Source: a virus. From it: a DNA stretch of 42,984 bases. The notes below the pieces were generated by a model that saw only the letters and a program-made list of their open reading frames with translations, did no database searches and was not told the DNA's origin. Shown in pieces: positions 425 to 42,000 of this stretch; position 1 is the stretch's first letter, and each line of letters begins with the position of its first letter. Where the stretch lies: IMG/VR virus record IMGVR_UViG_3300030451_003001, positions 1-42,984 of that record. One strand, given 5' to 3'. Position numbers and translations under genes: made by a program.

Positions 425-492
425 AATAATTTGGTTTTAAGTTTCCGTTTCGACCTTTTGGTCTCATCAGCACAAGCACTCACTTGTGGACG

Positions 493-557
493 GAGGGCAT
501 CCGTCCGTTTGAACGGACACCCGGAGAGAGGGCATCCGTCCGTTTGAACGGACACCC
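493..557. repeat. Tandem 30-bp repeat, each copy holding the 16-bp palindrome
   Basis: Two identical 30-base units (493-522 and 528-557), each beginning GAGGGCAT and ending in the palindrome GTCCGTT-TG-AACGGAC (503-518, 538-553), are separated by five bases. Just upstream, GGACGGA (488-494) can pair with TCCGTCC (500-506), so the first palindrome could form two mutually exclusive hairpins. The element lies between the amidoligase-like gene and the small membrane-protein gene, both on the minus strand, and may control transcription or mRNA processing between them. Confidence 0.75.
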
Positions 558-562
558 ACAAA

Positions 563-1525
563 TCATCTCTCAGTGGCTCTGCGTAGGCTCGTAGTGTAGT
601 GAGCAGAAAGCCTATTGTATTGGTCAACCCATTGCACAACCTCAGCGTTAATCTTACCGGTCATTAGCATCTTTCTGAACGCCTTTGATAGAGTAACAAT
701 CTCATCAACCTTAGCTTCATTGCCATCGTACATATACAAGAGTATAGATTTAATCTTCTTGATGAATCCTGCGTACGTGCCGTTTGGCTTGTTGATAGCG
801 TAATTCATCAACTCATACATAAGCCTATAGCGAAGATTAATGCTTCTAACTGATTCCACTCGGTTAGGTAGGCGGAACTCAATTCTATCGTCCATAATCT
901 TACAAACGTGATACTTACTGCTTGACGTATGTCCAACCCAATCACCATGATAATCACTTGTATTCATCATCAAGTTTCCATAGCAATATGAATTGCGTAA
1001 TCTGAATCGCCATAGAGCGTAGATAATACCCGCATATGGTCTTAGCTTATCAGCCAAGTCTTGTCCGCTCATACCAACGCAAGAAAGAGTAATGTGACCA
1101 CCACATCTTTGATTTGATGGTGAGTATCTATCTTCGATAATCTTACTTGCTTCAGAGAACATACCAAGCACTTTGTTACGCCAAACTGATTTGTCCACCA
1201 ATGGTAGCAAGTTAGTCACTGCTTCAACTCCACATGATGAATCGTACTCGAAATGACTGAATAATGGATATTCTTTGACTGCTCCACGATGAAAGGTATT
1301 CTTCTCAATCTCAAAGCCTATCGCAAACTTTGACTGAAACTCGCCCTCATCATTGGTAAAGGTAGTCAAGTCACGTGTAGCCCTCGGTAAATGAGTCAAG
1401 TCACGCTCAAACTCAGTCTTGTTTAGCTTTCTGAATGGTAGACCGATTCTACTCGCTTCATGGTATCTTAGCATTCGACCTCTGTTCGAATTGCCCTCAG
1501 CTACATAATTAATTCCTTGTATCAT
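563..1525 (-). CDS. Amidoligase-like enzyme (putative COOH-NH2 ligase, Amidoligase_2 type)
   Basis: A 320-residue protein. Motifs in the order expected of the glutamine-synthetase-like amidoligase family are visible: GFEIE (70-74), DSSCGVEAVT (95-104), CGGHITLS (141-148, in place of the usual G-x-HVH) and RIEFRLPNRV (214-223). In that fold the acidic and His residues of these motifs bind metal and ATP. Such enzymes join a carboxylate to an amine, often on peptides; the substrate here is unknown (host cell wall peptide, host protein or a small metabolite are all possible). The start ATG 1525-1523 is preceded by the shared leader AAAAACCAAATAGTT, and a palindrome copy lies 19 bases upstream. 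The assignment is from motif pattern only; no similarity search was possible. Confidence 0.6.
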   Translation of the reverse strand: MIQGINYVAEGNSNRGRMLRYHEASRIGLPFRKLNKTEFERDLTHLPRATRDLTTFTNDEGEFQSKFAIGFEIEKNTFHRGAVKEYPLFSHFEYDSSCGVEAVTNLLPLVDKSVWRNKVLGMFSEASKIIEDRYSPSNQRCGGHITLSCVGMSGQDLADKLRPYAGIIYALWRFRLRNSYCYGNLMMNTSDYHGDWVGHTSSSKYHVCKIMDDRIEFRLPNRVESVRSINLRYRLMYELMNYAINKPNGTYAGFIKKIKSILLYMYDGNEAKVDEIVTLSKAFRKMLMTGKINAEVVQWVDQYNRLSAHYTTSLRRATER

Positions 1526-1543
1526 AACTATTTGGTTTTTGTA

Positions 1544-1559
1544 GTCCGTTTAAACGGAC
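1544..1559. repeat. Palindrome copy GTCCGTT-TA-AACGGAC
   Basis: A perfect 16-bp dyad lying 19 bases upstream of the amidoligase-like start and just after the end of the upstream minus-strand gene. It is one of seven copies with an invariant 7-bp arm in this window. Confidence 0.8.
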
Positions 1560-1571
1560 ATGGTTAATTTA

Positions 1572-1820
1572 TTAAGCTAATTGTATTATAATTTCATCTG
1601 AATCATCTGCAGGATATATTGCACCATCATCTTCACGCTCAAATACCATAGTCTCATCGCCAAAAAATACTTCTACAGCATCTTGTTCTTCTTTGCATCC
1701 ATTGATAACCTTGCATCCCTCAAGAGAATTGTCAAGGATGAATTGCTCGTATCCATACTCAGAACATACATCGAATGAGCATAATTTGATTCCGTTTGCA
1801 TTTTGAATTGTAATTGTCAT
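1572..1820 (-). CDS. Hypothetical acidic protein, 82 residues
   Basis: The product starts MTITIQNANGIKLCSFDVCS and is strongly acidic in its second half (EREDD, DDSDE). The N-terminal part reads like beta strands (MTITI, IKLCSFDV), so a small beta-rich fold with an acidic face is likely. Four Cys occur in the first half. The start is supported by the leader AAAAAACAAATAGTT before ATG, nearly identical to that of the next gene in the operon. No family is recognised. Small acidic phage proteins may mimic DNA or bind host proteins, but the sequence gives no direct proof. Confidence 0.65.
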   Translation of the reverse strand: MTITIQNANGIKLCSFDVCSEYGYEQFILDNSLEGCKVINGCKEEQDAVEVFFGDETMVFEREDDGAIYPADDSDEIIIQLA

Positions 1821-1855
1821 AACTATTTGTTTTTTATTGGTTAAGACTCAAGTCC

Positions 1856-1871
1856 GTCCGTTAGAACGGAC
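1856..1871. repeat. Palindrome copy GTCCGTT-AG-AACGGAC
   Basis: The 7-bp arms are intact with a different central dinucleotide (AG). The copy sits in the 85-base gap between two minus-strand genes and is flanked by ACTCAAG on both sides (1847-1853 and 1870-1876), so the imperfect repeat extends beyond the core. Confidence 0.8.
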
Positions 1872-1905
1872 TCAAGTTTCGTCTATTCAAGACTCGTCAG
1901 TTAAC

Positions 1906-2520
1906 CTATGAATTTAGTTCTACTCTCATCTCATTGAACGAACGACTAACCATTGGAGGAATCTTATCCTCATCGCCACTGATATGAATTTGCCCGTCAG
2001 CAGTCAAACGCATAGAAACACCTTTGCCATCGTCAAAGCACTCGCCTTTGATAGCGAACGTCATCAGAGTAGTAGATGTAGTTTCAACCTCAGCATCATC
2101 GCCATCAGTCTCAACAGCCTTAGCGTACTTTAGTAGATTCTTGATGCTTCTCGAAGCAGTCTTGTCGTTTTGGTTTTCTAGCTTCGTACATTCTCTCTTG
2201 TACTTAGTGATAGTGTCATTAGACTCATCACGTAGCTTACCAACCTTAACCATGTCGTAAAAGAATGATTTGTTGTAACCGAATATTTGCTTGTGAAATT
2301 CTTCGGTAGTCATCACTACACCAATGTAATCCATCTGTTGCTTACATTCGGCTGATTTGAAATACTCGAAAGTTTTGTAAATCTTGTGAGCCAATTTGAT
2401 TTGCTTGTCAAACGTCTTTTTCTCTGAGTCTTGTAACTCAGTTACTAACGTCAATGCACCATTGAACTCATTACAATTGTTTCCTAACAATTCCTCGAAA
2501 ATTGGATTAATTTGTCTCAT
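1906..2520 (-). CDS. Hypothetical protein, 204 residues, first gene of the minus-strand operon
   Basis: The N-terminal two thirds are predicted largely helical and charged, including a segment TTEEFHKQIFGYNKSFFYDM (about residues 71-90) that reads like a DNA-binding or replication/partition-type helical region. The C-terminal third (from about 150) is beta-like and acidic (MTFAIKGECFDDGKGVSMRL). It is the first gene after the divergent control region and the nearest to the only clear minus-strand promoter (2583-2612), so it is probably expressed early. The leader AAAAATCAAGTAATT precedes its ATG. No family can be named; a regulatory or DNA-binding role is an inference from position and helix pattern. 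Confidence 0.65.
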   Translation of the reverse strand: MRQINPIFEELLGNNCNEFNGALTLVTELQDSEKKTFDKQIKLAHKIYKTFEYFKSAECKQQMDYIGVVMTTEEFHKQIFGYNKSFFYDMVKVGKLRDESNDTITKYKRECTKLENQNDKTASRSIKNLLKYAKAVETDGDDAEVETTSTTLMTFAIKGECFDDGKGVSMRLTADGQIHISGDEDKIPPMVSRSFNEMRVELNS

Positions 2521-2582
2521 AATTACTTGATTTTTAGTTATTTAAGTTAAATTATCGGAGTACGTTTCTCGGACTCACTTTA

Positions 2583-2612
2583 CAAATATAGTTTAATTCT
2601 CGTACAATACAA
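2583..2612 (-). promoter_or_regulatory. Bacteroidota-type promoter for the minus-strand operon
   Basis: On the minus strand a TATATTTG box (2583-2590, matching TAnnTTTG) lies 19 bases from an upstream TTG (2610-2612), the arrangement of the flavobacterial housekeeping promoter. It lies 63 bases before the 204-residue gene and is the only such box seen on this strand before the six minus-strand genes. Confidence 0.6.
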
Positions 2613-2656
2613 TACCTAAACGTATTTTTTTTCATTTTTTTTACATCTCTTGTCTA

Positions 2657-2677
2657 ATCTCAGTATATACTTGAGAT
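2657..2677. repeat. Inverted repeat, operator-like
   Basis: ATCTCA (2657-2662) and TGAGAT (2672-2677) flank GTATATACT, giving a near-perfect 21-base dyad with one extra T. It is placed between the minus-strand promoter and the plus-strand genes, where a regulator could act on either direction. It could also simply form a hairpin. Confidence 0.45.
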
Positions 2678-3041
2678 GTGGACGGAACAAATCCCCAAGA
2701 AAAGTTTAACGTGCTTTTGCCCGGGAATGGGCTGTGCATCCTTTCTTTGCATCTGTTAAGATATTCTGCTCTAATTTTCAGTCTTAAGTCCGTTTCAACG
2801 GACAAAGCAGTTAATCATGGTGAATCCGAGCATTACAAACGTGAATCCGATACACTCCGACAAACGTACTGCAAGGCTTGTAGATGTACGGCAGTAAAAC
2901 GGCAAAAAATCCGATTGCACCGAGCAAAAACACACCCCCACCCCCAAGAAAAAAATCGGTTTTCTGAGGGCGACCGACACGCTGCACGCGACACATAACC
3001 TTTTAGTTCTATATATCTAATTTTTTTTATACCTTTACCCT
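2678..3041. other. Divergent control region without a convincing gene; repeat-rich
   Basis: This stretch looks G+C-richer than the surrounding sequence. It holds a palindrome copy (2788-2803), two copies of GTGAATCCGA (2820-2829, 2841-2850), a third AATCCGA (2908-2914), two ACAAACGT copies and a C-rich tract near 2935-2945. Reading frames of about 60-106 codons exist on both strands but none is convincing. The position between divergent gene blocks and the short direct repeats would fit a replication origin or a regulatory region; this is inference. Confidence 0.4.
2788..2803. repeat. Palindrome copy GTCCGTT-TC-AACGGAC
   Basis: The arms are intact with central dinucleotide TC. It is the only copy inside the divergent control region. 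A minus-strand 61-codon frame of doubtful reality has its stop codon inside this element. Confidence 0.8.
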
Positions 3042-3509: not shown

Positions 3510-5099
3510 ATGAATCCAAAAGAATTACACTTTGCTGATGAGGGTAGAAAAAAACTTTTCAGCGGACTAGAAAAAATTACTAACGCAGTAAAGAGCACTC
3601 TCGGTCCTAGAGGTAACACAGTGCTAATTGAATCAGAAAATCATACTCATGGAATCACCGTTACTAAAGATGGTGTTACAGTTGCTAAGTCTATTAGCTT
3701 GCTTGACTCTGTGGAAAATCTTGCAGTACGTATTGTAAAGGAAGCTTCGGAAAAGACAGCGACTAATGCCGGTGATGGTACTACTACTGCAATCGTATTA
3801 TCGCAAGCTTTATCTCTTGCGGGTAATGAAATGATAAAGTCCGGTATGAATAAGACATTAGTTCTTAGAGAGCTAGTTGAAGCGACAAAGGTTGTAGTGG
3901 AAAATCTTAAGAAGATGAGTAAGCCTGTTGATAATAATAAGCTTGAGGATGTTGCTACCATCTCTGCTAATAATGATTCGTATATAGGTAATATAATATC
4001 TAAAGTATATAATTCAGTTGGTACAGATGGAATAGTTACGGTTGAGAACTCTCAGTCTTCTGAAACATATTTTGAGGTTACTAACGGTATTAAAGTTGAC
4101 CGTGGTTACTCTAGTAACTTGTTTATCAATAATCACAAAAAGGACGAGTGTATTTATGAGGATGTAAATATTCTTGTTAGTGATGCTGAGATAACAAATG
4201 TATTACAGATTGAGAATGTTTTAAAACCAATTATTAATAAGGGTGAAAAGTTATTGATTATAGCTAATGCATCTTCTAATGTGTTAAACACTCTTGCTGC
4301 TAATGTTATGAAGAACGGTTTGAAGATATGTGTTATATCACCACCGAGTTTTGGTTACAAGCAACATGAGTTGATGAATGATATTGCATTATCTGTTGGT
4401 GCTACATATTTTTCTGAAAAGACAGGTGACGACCTTAGTTTGATACTACCTAAAGATTTAGGTAAAGCTAAAAAAATTATAGTAGGTAAAGATTCATCTA
4501 TAATTATTAAAGATGAAAATGTAGTATCTAAAGATGATATTGATAAGCGAGTATCTGAGCTTCGTGATGCACATGACATAACTGATAAGAAAGCTGACCG
4601 TGAGTTTATACTATCACGTATAGCTTCATTAACAGGAGGTGTAGGTGTTATATATGCAGGAGGTAAAACTGACCTAGAGCAAAAAGAACTATATGACCGT
4701 ATTGATGATGCTGTATGTGCTGTTCGTTCTGCTACTGTTGAGGGTATACTTCCGGGAGGAGGAGTAGCTCTTGAAAACATATCACGTAAATTAGCTGTAA
4801 AAGATAATTGGTCTGATGAAAAGAAGTGTGCGTATGAGATACTTAAAGTGTCTTTACTATCACCTATTATCACAATACTTGAAAACGCAGGATTAAATTA
4901 CAACTCAATATACTCTGATAATTTTTCAAAGGGTTGGGGTTATGATGTAAAAAATGATAAATATGGTAATATGATGAAGATGGGTATCATTGACCCAATG
5001 AAAGTTACTAAGAACGCTCTTCAAAATGCTGTGTCAGTTGCTGTCACACTACTTAGCACTAATGCTATTATTACCATGATGAGAAGTAATGGAAAATAA
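3510..5099 (+). CDS. groEL: GroEL-type chaperonin (Cpn60), phage-encoded
   Basis: A 529-residue group I chaperonin, slightly shorter than the usual 545 or so. Hallmarks seen: LGPRG (31-35), TKDGVTVAK (52-60), the nucleotide-binding GDGTTT (88-93), and the late equatorial DDAVCAVRSATVEGILPGGG, which contains the Asp corresponding to catalytic Asp398 of E. coli GroEL. The hydrophobic Gly-Met tail typical of bacterial GroEL is absent; the protein ends TMMRSNGK. It presumably folds phage proteins (capsid or others) in an ATP-driven ring with the GroES encoded 650 bases downstream. Its end overlaps the phoH-like start by 11 bases. Sequence between the conserved blocks is divergent, typical of viral chaperonins rather than a recent host copy. 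Confidence 0.95.
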   Translation: MNPKELHFADEGRKKLFSGLEKITNAVKSTLGPRGNTVLIESENHTHGITVTKDGVTVAKSISLLDSVENLAVRIVKEASEKTATNAGDGTTTAIVLSQALSLAGNEMIKSGMNKTLVLRELVEATKVVVENLKKMSKPVDNNKLEDVATISANNDSYIGNIISKVYNSVGTDGIVTVENSQSSETYFEVTNGIKVDRGYSSNLFINNHKKDECIYEDVNILVSDAEITNVLQIENVLKPIINKGEKLLIIANASSNVLNTLAANVMKNGLKICVISPPSFGYKQHELMNDIALSVGATYFSEKTGDDLSLILPKDLGKAKKIIVGKDSSIIIKDENVVSKDDIDKRVSELRDAHDITDKKADREFILSRIASLTGGVGVIYAGGKTDLEQKELYDRIDDAVCAVRSATVEGILPGGGVALENISRKLAVKDNWSDEKKCAYEILKVSLLSPIITILENAGLNYNSIYSDNFSKGWGYDVKNDKYGNMMKMGIIDPMKVTKNALQNAVSVAVTLLSTNAIITMMRSNGK

Positions 5100-5745
5100 A
5101 TCTAAGAAGCCACCAAAGGGTAGCGTTAAGTTTAACATATCCTTGTCTGAAGAACAAAAAAGAGCTAAGGAGCAAATGATAAAGCATCCGTATAGCTTTG
5201 TTGTAGGTAAGGCAGGGTCAGGTAAGACATTACTTGCTGTTCAAGTGGCTTTAGATATGTTTTTTAAAAGGCAGTATAATAAGATAATTATTACAAGACC
5301 AACTGTTGCGACTGAAGACAATGGGTTTCTCCCCGGTACTGAAAAAGAAAAGCTAGAACCTTGGCTTGTACCTATCATGTCTAATATGCGTAAGGTCTAT
5401 AACAAGCCTGATAAGATAGCTAAGATGGTGGAGCAAGAGGAAATTGAGCTAGTCTCTCTTGCCCACTTTCGAGGCAGAACATTTGATGGTGCTGTAGTTA
5501 TAGTAGATGAGTTTCAGAACTTAACTAAGGCACAGCTAAGAATGGCTTTAGGTAGGTTGGGTAAAGACTCTATAATGATATTCTGTGGAGACAATCAGCA
5601 GATTGATTTATCTACAGAGCTTAACTCAGCAATTGACGATGTTCATAAAATAAAAGGTAGCGACTATGTGTTTAAAGTTATACTAGAAGACAATCATAGA
5701 AATAAAGCTATAGACGATGTATTAAAACTTTTAACAGGATACTAA
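5089..5745 (+). CDS. phoH: PhoH-like P-loop ATPase
   Basis: A 218-residue protein with Walker A GKAGSGKT (40-47), the PhoH signature FRGRTFDGAVVIVDEFQN (127-144, containing Walker B with DE), and the sensor-like CGDNQQID (166-173). The family corresponds to the ATPase half of superfamily 1 helicases and is widespread in marine phages, where its role (RNA or nucleotide metabolism, possibly stress response) is unsettled. It is sandwiched between groEL (11-base overlap) and groES (adjacent start, no gap), an unusual position suggesting co-expression with the folding machinery. The start ATG 5089 gives the full family N-terminus. Confidence 0.95.
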   Translation: MENKSKKPPKGSVKFNISLSEEQKRAKEQMIKHPYSFVVGKAGSGKTLLAVQVALDMFFKRQYNKIIITRPTVATEDNGFLPGTEKEKLEPWLVPIMSNMRKVYNKPDKIAKMVEQEEIELVSLAHFRGRTFDGAVVIVDEFQNLTKAQLRMALGRLGKDSIMIFCGDNQQIDLSTELNSAIDDVHKIKGSDYVFKVILEDNHRNKAIDDVLKLLTGY

Positions 5746-6003
5746 ATGAAACCAATAGGAAAATATATTGTAATCAATGAAATTAAAGAAGAGGTAAAAA
5801 CACAATCAGGTATTTTACTTTCAGGAGATGACGTTGATAAGATAAGATATAAAAAGGGTACTGTTGTAAAACCCGGTACTGAGGTAACAAAGATAAATGA
5901 GGGTGACACAATCTATTACGACACACGAGCAGGTTACTCTATGTTTATAGAAGACGTGCAGTATACGATTATTCGTGAGAACGATGTCGTTGTTGTCTTA
6001 TAG
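5746..6003 (+). CDS. groES: GroES-type co-chaperonin
   Basis: An 85-residue protein, close to the 95 of bacterial GroES. It has the GroES order: beta strand KPIGKYIVI, a mobile-loop candidate TQSGILLSGDD (about 20-30, with the GIL tripeptide that docks on GroEL), GTVVKPG, GDTIYYD and a final acidic-hydrophobic strand IRENDVVVVL. It would cap the phage GroEL or possibly the host one. The gene begins immediately after the phoH stop. Its last 35 bases overlap the end of the convergent winged-helix gene. The tyrosine-containing region YYDTRAGYSMF replaces the usual roof-loop composition, as is common in viral forms. Confidence 0.88.
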   Translation: MKPIGKYIVINEIKEEVKTQSGILLSGDDVDKIRYKKGTVVKPGTEVTKINEGDTIYYDTRAGYSMFIEDVQYTIIRENDVVVVL

Positions 6004-6403
6004 AAGCGTTCATTTCTTTTATAAAATTTCGGTACACCTTGTCGGTGTACTTGACATTCTTAGCGAACATAGGGTTTGCTGATAGGCTAGTGGGGATTTC
6101 TTCTCCACTTAGTTTTTTATATATAGAGGTGCATACCCTTTTAGCTTTATAGGACAACACATATATTGCACGTGTAGGACCACATCTTTTTCTAAACACT
6201 TCTATCCATCCATCTCTTAGTAGTTTATCAAATCTGTTTTCATTCCAACTAAGAAGCTCGTTAAACTCTTCAAACTTTGCTTTGTCAAAATATCCTTCTG
6301 ACTTTAGAAACAATATTACATCTAGTTCAGCTTGTGATAAACCATATTTAGCTTTGATAAAATATCGGATGACTCTCCAATATTTAAGATAGTCGTTATT
6401 CAT
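5969..6403 (-). CDS. Winged-helix (MarR-like) DNA-binding protein
   Basis: A 144-residue protein on the strand opposite its neighbours. Residues about 18-85 fit a winged helix: helix GLSQAELDVILFLKSEG, recognition-helix candidate SWNENRFDKLLRDGWIEVF, and a wing with basic residues RKRCGPTRAIYVLSYKAKR. The C-terminal half is helical and basic, and could give dimerisation. It overlaps the end of groES by 35 bases (tail to tail) and is transcribed from a promoter back to back with that of the virion genes, so it is a good candidate for a regulator of the early-late switch. That role is inferred from fold and position. Confidence 0.7.
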   Translation of the reverse strand: MNNDYLKYWRVIRYFIKAKYGLSQAELDVILFLKSEGYFDKAKFEEFNELLSWNENRFDKLLRDGWIEVFRKRCGPTRAIYVLSYKAKRVCTSIYKKLSGEEIPTSLSANPMFAKNVKYTDKVYRNFIKEMNASIRQQRHRSHE

Positions 6404-18304: not shown

Positions 18305-20525
18305 ACTTTATAGAGTAATACCTGAATATATACCGAATAGACCTCTTACTAAAAAAAATAATAATAAGAGTTGGATGTATGGATATAATCAGGAGTATGA
18401 CTTTGTTAACATATCTAAAACCGGTCAAGTAGGTGAAATTGTAGAAATATCAGGTTTAAAGATAGGGCTACCATTAAAACCCAAAAATGTTTATAAACGT
18501 AGTAATACAAGAAAAGAGCAGTATTGGGAAAGAAAAATTTATCCAAAAGAACTTAGTAAAATAAATTCAATATTTCAATGGAATGAGATGCCGTCTTCGT
18601 TTAAAGATAGATGGGTTGATTATGTTGAAAATGAATTTGATAGAAGAGAAGATGGTTATTGGTTTATGAACTGTGGCGACCCTGTTTATATAACCGGCTC
18701 TCATTATATGTATCTTCAATGGACTTCAATTGACGTTGGCTATCCCGATTACCGTGAAGCTAATAGAATCTTTTTTATTTTTTGGGAAGCTTGCAAAGCT
18801 GATAAAAGGTCTTTTGGAATGACCTACTTAAAGATAAGACGTTCAGGTTTTTCTTTTATGGGTTCATCAGAAGCGGTAAATACAGGTACATTAGCACGTG
18901 ACTCAAGAGTAGGTATACTATCTAAAACAGGTAGTGATGCTAAAAAAATGTTTACAGATAAAGTAGTACCTATAAATAGTAGACTACCTTTCTTTTTTAA
19001 ACCTATTATGGATGGTATGGATAAACCTAAAACTGAATTAGCTTTTAGGATTCCTGCATCCAAGATTACAAAAAAGAATATGTATGAAAATGATTCGGAA
19101 GAGCTTGAAGGTCTTGACACTACAATAGATTGGAAAAACACAGATGACAACTCTTATGATGGTGAAAAACTTTTATTATTAGTTCACGATGAAAGTGGTA
19201 AGTGGATAAAGCCTAACAATATATTAAATAATTGGAGAGTTACTAAAACTTGTTTAAGACTAGGTAGTAAGATTATAGGTAAATGTATGATGGGGTCTAC
19301 CTCTAACGCATTAAGTAAGGGTGGTAGTAATTTTAAAAAGCTATACGAAGATTCAAATGTTTTAGAAAGAAACTCTAATGGTCAGACTAAAAGTGGTATG
19401 TATGCCTTGTTTATTCCTATGGAATGGAATATGGAAGGATTTATTGATAGGTATGGATTACCTGTATTTAAGAAGCCATCTAAACCTTTATTAGGTGTTG
19501 ATAATGAAATGATTGATAATGGTGCTGTTGACTATTGGGAAGCTGAAGTAGAGTCGCTAAAAAACGATGCTGATGCTTTGAATGAATTTTATAGACAATT
19601 TCCTAGAACAGAGTCTCACGCATTTAGAGATGAAAGTAAACAAGCATTATTTAACTTAACAAAAATATACCAACAAATAGATTACAATGACTCTTTAATA
19701 TTGGAGCGTCATGTTACAAGAGGTTCTTTTCATTGGAAGAATGGACAAAAAGATACTGAAGTTGTTTTTAGCCCTGATAAGAGAGGTAGGTTTTTAATTA
19801 GTTGGATGCCAAACAAAAATTTACAAAATAGATTTATTTTAAAAAGAGGTGTAAAGTATCCTGCAAATGAACATATAGGTTCTTTTGGTTGTGACTCTTA
19901 TGATATATCAGGAACTGTAGGAGGTAAAGGCTCTAATGGTGCTCTTCACGGTCTCACAAAATTTAATATGGATGAGGCTCCTAGTAATGAGTTTTTCTTA
20001 GAATATATAGCAAGACCTCAGACAGCAGAAATATTTTTTGAAGATGTTCTTATGGCTTGTGTGTTTTATGGAATGCCTCTTCTTTGTGAAAATAACAAAC
20101 CTAGATTACTTTATCATTTTAAAAATAGAGGTTATAGAGGCTATTCTATGAATAGACCTGATAAAGTATATAACAAGCTCTCTAAGACAGAAAAAGAGCT
20201 AGGTGGTATACCTAACTCATCTGAAGATGTAAAGCAAGCTCATGCTGCAGCTATAGAGTCTTATATAGAAAAGTATGTAGGCATTGATTTAAGTGGTGCA
20301 TATAGAGACCCTGATGATATGGGTAGTATGCCATTTATGAGAACGCTAGAAGATTGGGCAAAATTTGATATTACAAATAGAACAAAGTTTGATGCGTCTA
20401 TTAGTTCAGGTTTAGCTATTATGGCTAATCAGAAGCAGTTATATCAACCCGAACAAAAACAGTCAAAAATAAGTGTTACCTTTGCAAGATACAACAACAA
20501 AGGTTCAATAAGTGAATTAATATAA
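18282..20525 (+). CDS. terL: Large terminase subunit (TerL)
   Basis: A 747-residue packaging motor. ATPase domain: the P-loop region lies near KIRRSGFSFMGSS (about 183-195, atypical as in many phages), Walker B with catalytic acid in LLLLVHDESGKW (about 295-307), and the coupling motif GSTSNA shortly after. Nuclease domain: GCDSYDIS (about 537-544, first Asp), LLCENNK (about 600-606, acidic) and EDVKQAHAAA (about 645-655, last Asp). The start is TTG at 18282; no ATG exists between the in-frame stop and this point. Flanked by TerS candidate and portal. Confidence 0.85.
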   Translation: MQNEGQNKLYRVIPEYIPNRPLTKKNNNKSWMYGYNQEYDFVNISKTGQVGEIVEISGLKIGLPLKPKNVYKRSNTRKEQYWERKIYPKELSKINSIFQWNEMPSSFKDRWVDYVENEFDRREDGYWFMNCGDPVYITGSHYMYLQWTSIDVGYPDYREANRIFFIFWEACKADKRSFGMTYLKIRRSGFSFMGSSEAVNTGTLARDSRVGILSKTGSDAKKMFTDKVVPINSRLPFFFKPIMDGMDKPKTELAFRIPASKITKKNMYENDSEELEGLDTTIDWKNTDDNSYDGEKLLLLVHDESGKWIKPNNILNNWRVTKTCLRLGSKIIGKCMMGSTSNALSKGGSNFKKLYEDSNVLERNSNGQTKSGMYALFIPMEWNMEGFIDRYGLPVFKKPSKPLLGVDNEMIDNGAVDYWEAEVESLKNDADALNEFYRQFPRTESHAFRDESKQALFNLTKIYQQIDYNDSLILERHVTRGSFHWKNGQKDTEVVFSPDKRGRFLISWMPNKNLQNRFILKRGVKYPANEHIGSFGCDSYDISGTVGGKGSNGALHGLTKFNMDEAPSNEFFLEYIARPQTAEIFFEDVLMACVFYGMPLLCENNKPRLLYHFKNRGYRGYSMNRPDKVYNKLSKTEKELGGIPNSSEDVKQAHAAAIESYIEKYVGIDLSGAYRDPDDMGSMPFMRTLEDWAKFDITNRTKFDASISSGLAIMANQKQLYQPEQKQSKISVTFARYNNKGSISELI

Positions 20526-25004: not shown

Positions 25005-26420
25005 ATGGCAATTTCAGGAACTCCGGGGTTTGATTTAACTCCAAGTGCAACGCAACAAGCGTTGGCTAGTAATTATATTACTAACTTTGACTTTTTAAGT
25101 CAATATTTACCTGACACCTATGAGAAAGAATTTGAGCGTTACGGAAATCGTTCAGTTTCTTCTTTCTTGCGTATGGTAGGTGCAGAGATGCCTTCTAACT
25201 CAGACCTTATTAAGTGGGCTGAGCAAGGTCGTTTACATACAAAATACGTTGACTGTTCTTCAGGTGCAGCGGCTACGTCAGATATAGCTACTATTACTAT
25301 TGCAGATGCTGCTGTAGCTAATATTGGTGACCAAGCTATACGTGTAGGTCAAACTGTTTACATCTATGACAACGCAGGTGGAGGTAGTAACAAAGGTATT
25401 GTAACTGCTGTTAACTCTACAAATGCTAAAGCCTTTGATGTTGCTTACTATGAAGGAGGCGGACAAAATTTTGGTACTAGTGAAACTTTAAGCGTATTTG
25501 TTTACGGTTCTGAGTTTAGAAAAGGTACTGAAGGTATGGTAGGTTCTTTAGAAGCTGATGACCAAATTTTTGAGTGTAGCCCAATTATCATTAAAGATAA
25601 GTACGCAGTATCAGGTTCTGATATGGCTCAAATTGGTTGGGTTGAAGTAACTACTGAGAATGGTGCAACAGGTTACCTATGGTACTTGAAGTCAGAGCAC
25701 GAAACTCGTTTACGTTTTGACGACTACCTAGAGACAGCTATGTTGGAAGCAGTTCCTGCAGAAACAGGTTCAGGAGCAATTGCATCAGCAGTTGGTGCAA
25801 AAGGTACAGACGGTGTATTCCATGTTGTTAAAAACAGAGGTAACTTATGGTCAGGTGCTAATCCTTCTTCATTAAATACAGGATGGGACACTATTGTTCA
25901 GCGTTTAGATAAGCAAGGAGCTATCGAAGAGAATGTTCTTTTCGTTGACCGTGATTTTTCTTTCGACATTGACGATATGTTAGCTTCTCAAAACTCTTAT
26001 GGTCAAAATGGTACATCTTACGGTTTATTTGATAATGACCGAGATATGGCACTTAACTTAGGATTTACAGGATTCCGTAGAGGTTATGACTTCTACAAGT
26101 CTGATTGGAAATACCTAAATGACCCTACAATGAGAGGTAACATGAGTACTAATGCAGGTTCAGGGCGTATCAATGGATTATTAGTACCTGCAGGTTCTAC
26201 TACTGTGTATGACCAAGTGTTAGGTAAAAACGCTAAGCGTCCATTCTTACACGTACGTTACCGAGCTTCAGAAACTGAAGACAGACGTTACAAAACGTGG
26301 ATGACAGGTTCTGCCGGTGGTGCTATGAATTCTAGCTTAGATGCTATGGAAGTTCACTTCCTATCTGAGAGAGCTTGTTGTACTATGGGTGCAAACAACT
26401 TCTTCTTATTCGAGCAATAA
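25005..26420 (+). CDS. Major capsid protein
   Basis: A 471-residue protein, the expected size of an HK97-fold capsid protein. An N-terminal arm (about 1-55) is followed by a beta insertion (about 85-165, IRVGQTVYIYDNAGG, GIVTAVNST) and the core; the ending FLSERACCTMGANNFFLFEQ resembles those of capsid proteins of other Bacteroidota phages. An AAAAAAGGA stretch precedes the start. Position after the scaffold, isolated by its own terminator, and a visibly more G+C-rich codon choice than its neighbours agree with a highly expressed gene. Confidence 0.88.
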   Translation: MAISGTPGFDLTPSATQQALASNYITNFDFLSQYLPDTYEKEFERYGNRSVSSFLRMVGAEMPSNSDLIKWAEQGRLHTKYVDCSSGAAATSDIATITIADAAVANIGDQAIRVGQTVYIYDNAGGGSNKGIVTAVNSTNAKAFDVAYYEGGGQNFGTSETLSVFVYGSEFRKGTEGMVGSLEADDQIFECSPIIIKDKYAVSGSDMAQIGWVEVTTENGATGYLWYLKSEHETRLRFDDYLETAMLEAVPAETGSGAIASAVGAKGTDGVFHVVKNRGNLWSGANPSSLNTGWDTIVQRLDKQGAIEENVLFVDRDFSFDIDDMLASQNSYGQNGTSYGLFDNDRDMALNLGFTGFRRGYDFYKSDWKYLNDPTMRGNMSTNAGSGRINGLLVPAGSTTVYDQVLGKNAKRPFLHVRYRASETEDRRYKTWMTGSAGGAMNSSLDAMEVHFLSERACCTMGANNFFLFEQ

Positions 26421-26431
26421 GATGATAAATA

Positions 26432-26472
26432 AAAGAGGGTCCGTTTGAACGGACTCTCTTTACTTTTTTTTT
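26432..26472 (+). terminator. Strong terminator after the capsid gene, built on the palindrome
   Basis: A 15-bp stem (AAAGAGGGTCCGTT pairing with AACGGACTCTCTTT, one G-T pair) contains the palindrome copy GTCCGTT-TG-AACGGAC (26439-26454) and is followed by a run of T. It is well placed to end the scaffold-capsid transcript. Confidence 0.85.
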
Positions 26473-39038: not shown

Positions 39039-42000
39039 ATGGACAAATTAAAAGCTCTCTACAACAGCTATATTGAACAAGGAATATTAAGTAGTCAAAC
39101 TACCTTTGAACAATTTTCTTTAGCAGATTCTAGTACTCAAGAAAACTTATACCAACAAGGTATTGACAATAAAGTATTAAGCTCTCAAACAGATATTAAT
39201 ACTTTTCAATCTGCTTGGGATGAAGTAAAAAAAAAAGACGAGTCCGTTTCTATTTCTCAAGAGGATGTTACGGAATCTGTTACACCGACAGAGCAGGAAG
39301 AAGTTATCTCATCGGATGTTTCCGAGACAATAAGTCCTCAAGAAGAAATTGACTTTCAAAATTGGATGGCTACAGACCCAAATGTTGTAGCTTGGAGAGA
39401 AGAGTTTAAGCAAACCTACGGTGAAGAGCCTCAGATTGACAATTCAAACTACGACTATCGTGGAGCTTGGAAAGCAGGTATTAAGCCTCAACCTAGTAAG
39501 GTTGATGGTATGTATCATTGGGGTAGCAAAGGTATTGATGGTGTTGATTTAAAATCAGAAAACCATCCAACACGATGGAAGTCTGACTACATGGATGCTA
39601 CCGGAATAAATCCTGATGAAAGTGGTATAACAAAAGAAAAAGCTTTAGAGGTTATATCTAAGTCCGTTCAAACGGACGAACCTGTTGAAAGAGAATTAAC
39701 GCCAACAGAGTTAGACGAGCGATTATATCAAAGCATTTATGGTAAAGCAATAGAAGCCGGTGATGTATCTGTTCCTTCTTTAGAGGATTGGAAAAAAACT
39801 CCTCAGCTTTATTCTCAAAAAGCAGATGAAGAGGATTTATTAACAATACCAAGAACTTTAGAGAAATCTTATGATGATTCTTTTACAGGTCTTATTGTGA
39901 GAATGATATCTAGTAGTGGTGCTACTCCCGGTCCTGTTTTAGGTCCTGTTTATACGGGTAAAGATGAACCCATAATTCCTACAGCAGATAAGTATACTAC
40001 AGAGCCAATGTTTAATATAACAGATTATAAGGATGGAGATACTAATGAATTTGTTACAGGTATTTTAAGCACAGTCTTAGACTTTTTTGTTATGCCTGAG
40101 GTTGGAGTTGGAAGTGCTTTAATTAAAAGTGCTTCACAAGTTTTACCAAAACTACCAATCCTAGGAGCAGGTAAATACACCGTTGATGCTTTAGTTAAGA
40201 GAGGGATGAAACCTGAAGTTGCATCAAGAATAGTTCAAGAACAGCTACCTAAAGTTGTTAATCAATTAGATAAAGCAGGTTCTAAGTTCGGTTTTTTTGA
40301 AACTGCAAAAAATTTTCAAACCCAAGTAGAAGAATTAGGAGGTATAGAAAATGTAGACTTTACTCAATCTCCTGAAGCGTTTTCACAAGGTTATGGTCTT
40401 GGTGTAGGGTTAGGTTTAATAGGTCAAGTTGCTAGGCAAATACCTAGACTAGGTACAGCGTTAAAAACAGATGGAATTAAGAGTGTTTCACAAAAAGGTG
40501 TTACAGGTGTTTTAGGTGAAAGAGGTTTAAATAATTCTAGGATATTAGGTGCAGTAGGTGAGTCATTTGGTTTTACGGGTGAGGTAGGTACATTTGGTTA
40601 TATTAACGCAACTACTCCAACTCTTAAAAACCCTAAGGGTGAGCTTACAGCAGAGTCTTTCAAAGATGGTATGACTGATGCTTTGAAATATGTTATAGCT
40701 TTTAGAACCGTTGGTTTAGCGTCTAAGATAGCTCAAGGTAAGTCCGTTTTCGATAAGCAATTCACAGAGTTTAATGAAGCTGAAAAAGAGCAAGCTTGGT
40801 CTTTAATCACTGATATAAATAGTAAGATTGAAAGCGGTGAGATTAACCCTAAACAGGCACGAAAATATTTAGATGGTGTTATAGATAGAGCAAATACACC
40901 TATAACTTTAGTTGAAAAAGTTATGCAAGAAATTTCAGGTCTAAAAAGTAATTTACCTAGACAAGAAATTTTCAATAAAGTTTTTGACATAAAAGCTGAG
41001 GCTCAGCCTAATGGTACATATAAAATTAATACGTTTTCAAAAGACGGGTTATTACTAACAAGTGTAACTGTTGAGGGTCCAATAGAGGTTAGTAACTATA
41101 TAAGTGAATTTAGCAAAGAAAGAGATAATCAAATAAAAAAAACTAATGATGGTGAAGGCAACTACCCTGTTAATAACACCGTAAATTTTACTATTAATAA
41201 CGACCCAACTCCTAAACAACCAACGACTGACTTAGCTTCTATTGATGAGCAAATAACAACAGATGATGTAGAAGAGTTATCACCTGAAGTAAAAACAGAG
41301 GTAGATGCAATTAAAGCAGATGAGAATATAGATTTATCAGAGCTTGATGAAATAACTACAACGGAAGAAGCTCCTGAGTTTAGAAGAAAACCTCTTACTA
41401 CTCTGACTGAATCTCAAAATACAGAAACAGATGCTAAGGAAGCTCAGATATTAGAAACATTAAATGAAAGAGCTGACAACTTTATAAATGTAAGTGAGAT
41501 TAAGGAGACTGAAGCCACACCTTCTCAAATAAATGTTGAGGCTTTGAATCAAAGAACCGGTGGTAACTTCAAGGAGATAGATATAAAAACACTTGATAAT
41601 GTTCCGGTAATGTTTAACATATCAGACCAATTAACAACGGGTAACTACAATCCAAATGTTACTGATGTAAACCAAAACTACTCGGTAACAAATCCATTTA
41701 CAGGAAATGAAATAATAAATCTAAAAGGTGGTTTAGGATTTAGCTCTGTCAAAGGTCACGAGAATATAGCTTGGGCTAGTGTTACTCAAGATAAAGTTAA
41801 CAACCAAATAAACTCAGCTATAAAGATATACGAAAACAATAAACCTAAATTCGATAAGCTTTGGGCTGAAGGTGTTTTACCTGACGGTCATATTCCTATG
41901 GTTATTGTTAAGATGGGTAATGACAGTATGAAGAGTAATGAAGCCTTAATAAGAGTTATTAAAGATAACTTGGCATCATTCCCTGCTAAAAATAAAATAG

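Follow-up and report, generated by a model that had tools for sequence, protein, structure and literature searches.

The repressors of the Lambda CI type read symmetric operators with one helix-turn-helix (HTH) per half-site, and their specificity separates immunity groups. The operators of KorB in plasmid RK2 are palindromic and dispersed. KorB itself is a global regulator and some of its operators (O_B) are located far from promoters (PMC11790492). In the cluster A mycobacteriophages (L5, Bxb1, TipsytheTRex) a single regulator acts on many sites dispersed in gaps between genes, the stoperators (PMC6550527, PMC9283540). Hammerhead ribozymes flank genes in phages and it was proposed that they process long transcripts into mRNAs of the size of a gene (Perreault et al., PMC3088659). 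Our analysis of a viral sequence indicates that a repeated 16-bp palindrome very probably represents the dispersed DNA operators of a phage-encoded 204-aa regulator (ORF 1906-2520, minus strand), a reading to which we give a probability of about 0.8. We found no description of the palindromes of these phages in the literature.

The sequence analyzed (the window) is a virus record of 42,984 bases and it is a fragment of a phage of ~60 kb that resembles the crAss-like podophages. The nearest match to its capsid-like protein (25005-26420) was in MW202828.1, a circular podophage of 60.9 kb from Manatee Spring (66.5% identity), followed by phages of Maribacter, Flavobacterium and Cellulophaga, which are kin of the crAss-like podophages. 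The phages under study are uncultured and the ORF calls are mechanical. One block of the window (3510-6003) encodes a GroEL, a PhoH-like ATPase and a protein of GroES size. Among cellular bins the nearest matches to the GroEL are at 55-60%, and one of these comes from a contig of 61.6 kb, probably a phage binned by mistake.

The initial annotation had reported seven copies of GTCCGTT-NN-AACGGAC, and all were recovered at their positions with both 7-bp arms exact (Table 1). It had also judged chance copies very unlikely, in agreement with the zero found in 100 dinucleotide shuffles versus the seven observed. Allowing up to three mismatches, no further copy appeared in the window. The half-site GTCCGTT is found 16 times in the window against 1.2 expected, 14 of them within the palindromes; the two single ones, at 39242 and 40742, are both in the giant gene and on the same strand. 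The contexts were correctly described too: copies 1 to 4 occupy gaps of the minus-strand block, copy 5 is in the control region, copy 6 forms the centre of the terminator that follows the capsid-like gene, and copy 7 is within a long gene. The control region, located between the divergent blocks, contains as well a hairpin-forming stretch at 2640-2680 (CATCTC...GAGATG around TATATACT).

Table 1. Coordinates of the candidate operators and of the predicted elements associated with them in the window.
Feature	Coordinates	Strand	Remarks
Candidate operator copy 1	503..518		Just 5' (minus strand) of the type III hammerhead
Candidate operator copy 2	538..553		Local tandem duplicate of copy 1 (~35 bp); single copy there in G001-G003
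Candidate operator copy 3	1544..1559		Upstream of ORF 563-1525, 18 nt from its start
Candidate operator copy 4	1856..1871		34 nt past the end of the regulator gene; provides stem III to the type I hammerhead
Candidate operator copy 5	2788..2803		267 nt upstream of the regulator start codon; likely autoregulatory
Candidate operator copy 6	26439..26454		Intrinsic-terminator core behind the capsid-like gene 25005-26420
Candidate operator copy 7	39662..39677		Within the long ORF that starts at 39039, where it encodes S-V-Q-T-D
204-aa predicted HTH regulator gene (P0001)	1906..2520	-	Candidate binder of all seven sites
Type III hammerhead	444..494	-	Cut predicted between 489 and 488; small ORF 272-424 lies downstream; same element in G001-G004
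Type I hammerhead	1839..1906	-	Stem III is copy 4; cut predicted between 1845 and 1844
Intrinsic terminator	26431..26472	+	13-bp stem and T run; built around copy 6

Three IMG/VR contigs of ~60 kb (G001-G003), 91-95% identical to the window over the aligned parts, carry 9-13 exact copies of the palindrome, and smaller IMG/VR contigs close to the window have a few each. Many positions are common to the window and its close relatives, while others were gained or lost. An exact-pattern search of IMG/VR gave many single, chance-like matches, and only the multi-copy contigs were informative. The relatives found through the capsid lack this word and several of them carry another repeated palindrome. 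Altogether, the words of the relatives are either the same one or a dialect of it (GTGTCTT, GTGTCGT, GTCTCTT, GTTCGGT), in 5-18 copies. MW202828 has 14 copies of GTGTCGTTAACGACAC, G021 and G008 use GTGTCTT-NN-AAGACAC, G019 uses GTTCGGT-N-ACCGAAC and G009 has GTCTCTT/GTCTCCG half-sites; in eight relatives no repeated palindrome was found. When 24 whole records were examined for GTGTC-N6-GACAC, 5-18 copies appeared in 24/24, versus none of a control pattern. Absence from every close relative, with no conservation of position, had been named at the outset as a refutation. The word is indeed missing from the distant ones, but another word stands there at the same positions, and absence in the capsid-based relatives was dropped as a refutation once these other words turned up.

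We clustered all the ORFs of 20 records, 19 related genomes plus G005, which is not a relative. The family of ORF 1906-2520 was present in all 10 records first known to have a repeated palindrome, and also in G009, whose GTCTC word was recognised only after the family had been found there. It was present in 0 of the 8 relatives without repeated palindrome, a perfect phylogenetic profile over the 19 related genomes. A winged-helix protein, presumably ORF 5969-6403, had been put forward as the binder; we rejected it because its family is also found in seven relatives without repeated palindrome, while ORF 1906-2520 matches palindrome presence exactly. A search with the family alignment retrieved the regulator in 71 viral contigs, and the 75 regulator-encoding loci contained 452 sites versus 0.59 expected. 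The gene has a site within 400 nt upstream in 62 of 70 loci (median 214 nt) and within 100 nt behind it in 51 of 71, a layout that the window follows with copies 5 and 4. The claim that the palindrome is a protein-binding site is strongly supported by the gene profile, by the conserved layout and by the match between word and predicted helix described below. G005 (43% GC) contains three GTCCG sites and no regulator. L218 (IMG/VR 3300010157_000323), a contig of 43% GC that lacks the regulator family, has three clustered TGTCCGT-N4-ACGGACA sites at 18551-19900 that are probably the operators of an unrelated repressor.

The words have changed in concert at homologous positions. In a helicase-like gene the same codons encode S-P-F-E-R-T with the GTCCG word, S-V-F-E-D-T with GTGTC and S-L-F-S-E-T with GTCTC, the site of G001 having one mismatch. 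In all six compared relatives that lack the regulator gene, the codons at this place are unrelated; MW202828 and G019 carry the gene but not the site. The capsid terminator carries the lineage's own word in the window, G008 and G021 (three lineages), and the last two have theirs inside a giant gene similar to that of the window (copy 7) as well. This concerted change of distant sites indicates that local structure alone is insufficient as explanation. It also contradicts a mobile palindromic or host repeat that spread without function, to which we give hardly any credence. The copies are nearly identical within a genome and one pair is a local duplication, as could be expected from such a repeat, but a site is retained at homologous positions even where lineages use different words, and the flanks are not repeated as a unit. 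Besides, the regulator family was not found in bacterial genomes (GTDB species genomes) and no copy was present in the two MAGs tested, which have a similar GroEL.

No Pfam or PHROG family fits the regulator. The PDB provided no sequence match and, by Foldseek, no fold match, and a viral structure library only matched unnamed members of the same family. The AlphaFold model, made with 65 sequences (pLDDT 86), predicts an HTH formed by helices 72-80 and 84-99; because Foldseek gives no solved homologue, the HTH function rests on this model. The second helix contains residue 89, which is K in 68/68 GT[G/C]TC loci, D in 6/6 GTCCG loci and E in the GTTCG phage. The GTCCG phages are one clade nested among GTGTC phages and the tree shows only about two origins of D/E at this residue; few independent events are therefore behind the association with the word. 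An acidic residue replacing lysine when bases 4-5 go from TC to CG would be chemically sensible, as judged from these two or so events. Sequence evidence ties the regulator to the word: each phage has a single word in 5-18 copies, its presence follows the gene and its spelling follows the putative recognition helix.

Dispersed 16-bp palindromes that would all be read by one candidate protein could also serve a ParB/KorB-like protein for partition, or for organising the genome, in an episomal or carrier state. The upstream site is in fact far from the promoter: no overlap of the regulator-upstream operator with a promoter was found, and the predicted one is ~160-185 bp away, too far for simple occlusion. 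One member of the family, moreover, gave a weak PHROG ParB-like match. However, no ParB-family Pfam domain was detected in any of 66 regulator members, the deposited annotation of MW202828 includes no ParA, integrase or recombinase, and the sites crowd the gaps of early genes instead of forming one cluster. KorB/O_B is a plasmid system with a ParB-family protein and KorA/ParA partners, whereas here we deal with a phage in which no such partner was seen (for ParA, in that same annotation). We regard this possibility as quite improbable.

Across the loci, 247 of 413 sites (60%) are located in gaps although 88% of the sequence lies in ORFs. The gap sites are most often found 10-30 nt before an ATG in the early block, a position that would suit promoter hairpins for an N4-like virion RNA polymerase. 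Genes and terminators contain sites too, others directly follow a stop codon (several in MW202828 begin 4 nt behind one), eight relatives have no such site at all and the gene profile points to an HTH protein, all of which makes promoter hairpins a very improbable explanation.

Two hammerheads were recognised when the minus strand was read near 1856 and at 444-494, and others were afterwards identified with a finder script. Both elements of the window, for which self-cleavage is predicted, have the CUGANGA and GAAA core, three stems and a NUH cut site. The type I element folds as expected (z -4.3), with its predicted cut 24 nt before the ATG at 1820. At the gathering threshold there was no Rfam match; the best one for 1839-1906 (minus strand) was Hammerhead_1, below gathering (E 0.012). 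The finder returned 132 distinct hammerheads in the fetched loci and 0 in 2.8 Mb of shuffled sequence. Covariation supports the stems, with 30 different stem I sequences among type III and 5 among type I; since the finder demands pairing, stem pairing in its matches is partly by construction. In the regulator loci, a candidate operator is located within 40 nt upstream in 42 of 47 type III elements and acts as stem III in 16 of 22 of type I, that is, coupling in 58/69 versus a random mean of 2.2. In both types the palindrome is just 5' of the predicted cut. Hammerheads are abundant in related phages, and ordinary stem III caps without operator were seen in G004:17719, G018, L264, L266 and L268. 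Different from the phage hammerheads described before (PMC3088659), those found here form composite cassettes with the operator nested in stem III or just upstream, and this pairing with candidate operators is what our data add to that work. The shape of an intrinsic terminator (G+C-rich stem followed by a T run) was found only at copy 6 among the seven sites of the window and in 8 of 413 across loci.

This coupling raises the question of recognition as RNA. The initial annotation had offered a hairpin recognised at the RNA level as a reason for the conserved letters, and covariation in related phages as a check. In a set of 390 GTGTC sites, changes at the inner positions 6 and 11 are independent of each other and often uncompensated. 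C6-A11 mismatches (11) occur as often as T6-G11 wobbles (8), which goes against RNA pairing. The central step was YR in 382 of these 390. Of the regulator-upstream sites, 39/57 are between divergent genes, in probably untranscribed regions. The independent variation of the half-sites together with this position favours DNA, and RNA-hairpin recognition is disfavoured as the reason for the conserved letters. What stands of an RNA-level role is the use of the hairpin in places, at the terminator (26439) and as hammerhead stem III (1856). An RNA element could be an mRNA hairpin (6-bp stem, U-NN-A loop) bound by the regulator protein, or a 3'-end protector or processing mark beside the hammerhead cuts. 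The ribozyme coupling would fit it, and so would the position of the hairpin at the 3' end of the upstream RNA in both types, the location of most gap sites between co-directional genes and the orientation of the central dinucleotide, which on the coding strand in gaps is CA 128 times versus TG 16 (GTGTC sites, L379-L448), a bias unexplained by a symmetric operator alone. Against it, apart from the unpaired changes and the divergent upstream sites, exact words are kept within coding genes and the regulator has a predicted HTH. We consider an RNA element unlikely.

Taking the palindromes as DNA operators, the best supported mechanism is a phage global regulator with autoregulation. The protein would bind as a dimer that places a recognition helix on each GTCCGTT half-site, where bases 4-5 would be read by residue 89 (D in the window, K in the GTGTC phages). 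It may control its own expression through the upstream site at 2788, against which counts that the predicted promoter is too distant for simple occlusion. Less certainly as well, it might damp or block transcription of the early block at sites between co-directional genes in a stoperator-like manner. Its binding could result in repression, a roadblock, activation or another effect. In transcribed copies the hairpin has a further use. It provides the terminator stem at 26439, and in hammerheads it is stem III (1856) or lies just 5' of the ribozyme (503/538). These ribozymes probably cleave the early transcript a short distance ahead of the start codon that follows.

The closest working analogy is the stoperator system. 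As in the mycobacteriophages (PMC6550527, PMC9283540), the sites are dispersed mainly in short intergenic gaps and subgroup-specific words co-evolve with the protein. Stoperators are oriented along transcription, and here the arms are palindromic with the CA bias on the coding strand. In the mycobacteriophage system the repressor stops elongation and confers immunity to superinfection. The L5 site is asymmetric, of 13-14 bp, and is bound by a monomer with two DNA-binding domains, in contrast to a 16-bp palindrome and one predicted HTH; there are 20-30 stoperators versus 5-18 copies here, and the two proteins are unrelated. Hammerhead coupling and no sign of lysogeny also set our phages apart. 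Because protein, symmetry and copy number differ, we do not class the regulator as a member of the stoperator system. Lambda CI-type operators resemble what we propose in the symmetric site, one HTH per half-site and immunity-group-like specificity, but they cluster at two promoters, which is not the case here, and there is no detectable relation between the proteins. A broader and clearly tentative scenario is that one 16-bp palindrome is read twice, as DNA operator and then as stem III or 3'-end hairpin of a hammerhead, so that in crAss-like phages a single protein might couple the transcription of early genes to the self-cleavage of polycistronic RNA, and the dialects would keep the lineages apart.

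An undescribed protein family of uncultured crAss-like phages gains with these data a candidate target sequence and a testable role, and the natural series of protein and operator dialects is one from which rules of specificity may be read. The coupling of operators and hammerheads suggests that control of transcription and self-cleavage of RNA are linked. No lysogeny modules are known in the crAss-like phages and yet they persist in their hosts, as has been discussed for crAss001 (PMC8375218). A candidate for the way in which some of them may restrain lysis or exclude each other is an early regulator that acts genome-wide through words specific to the lineage.
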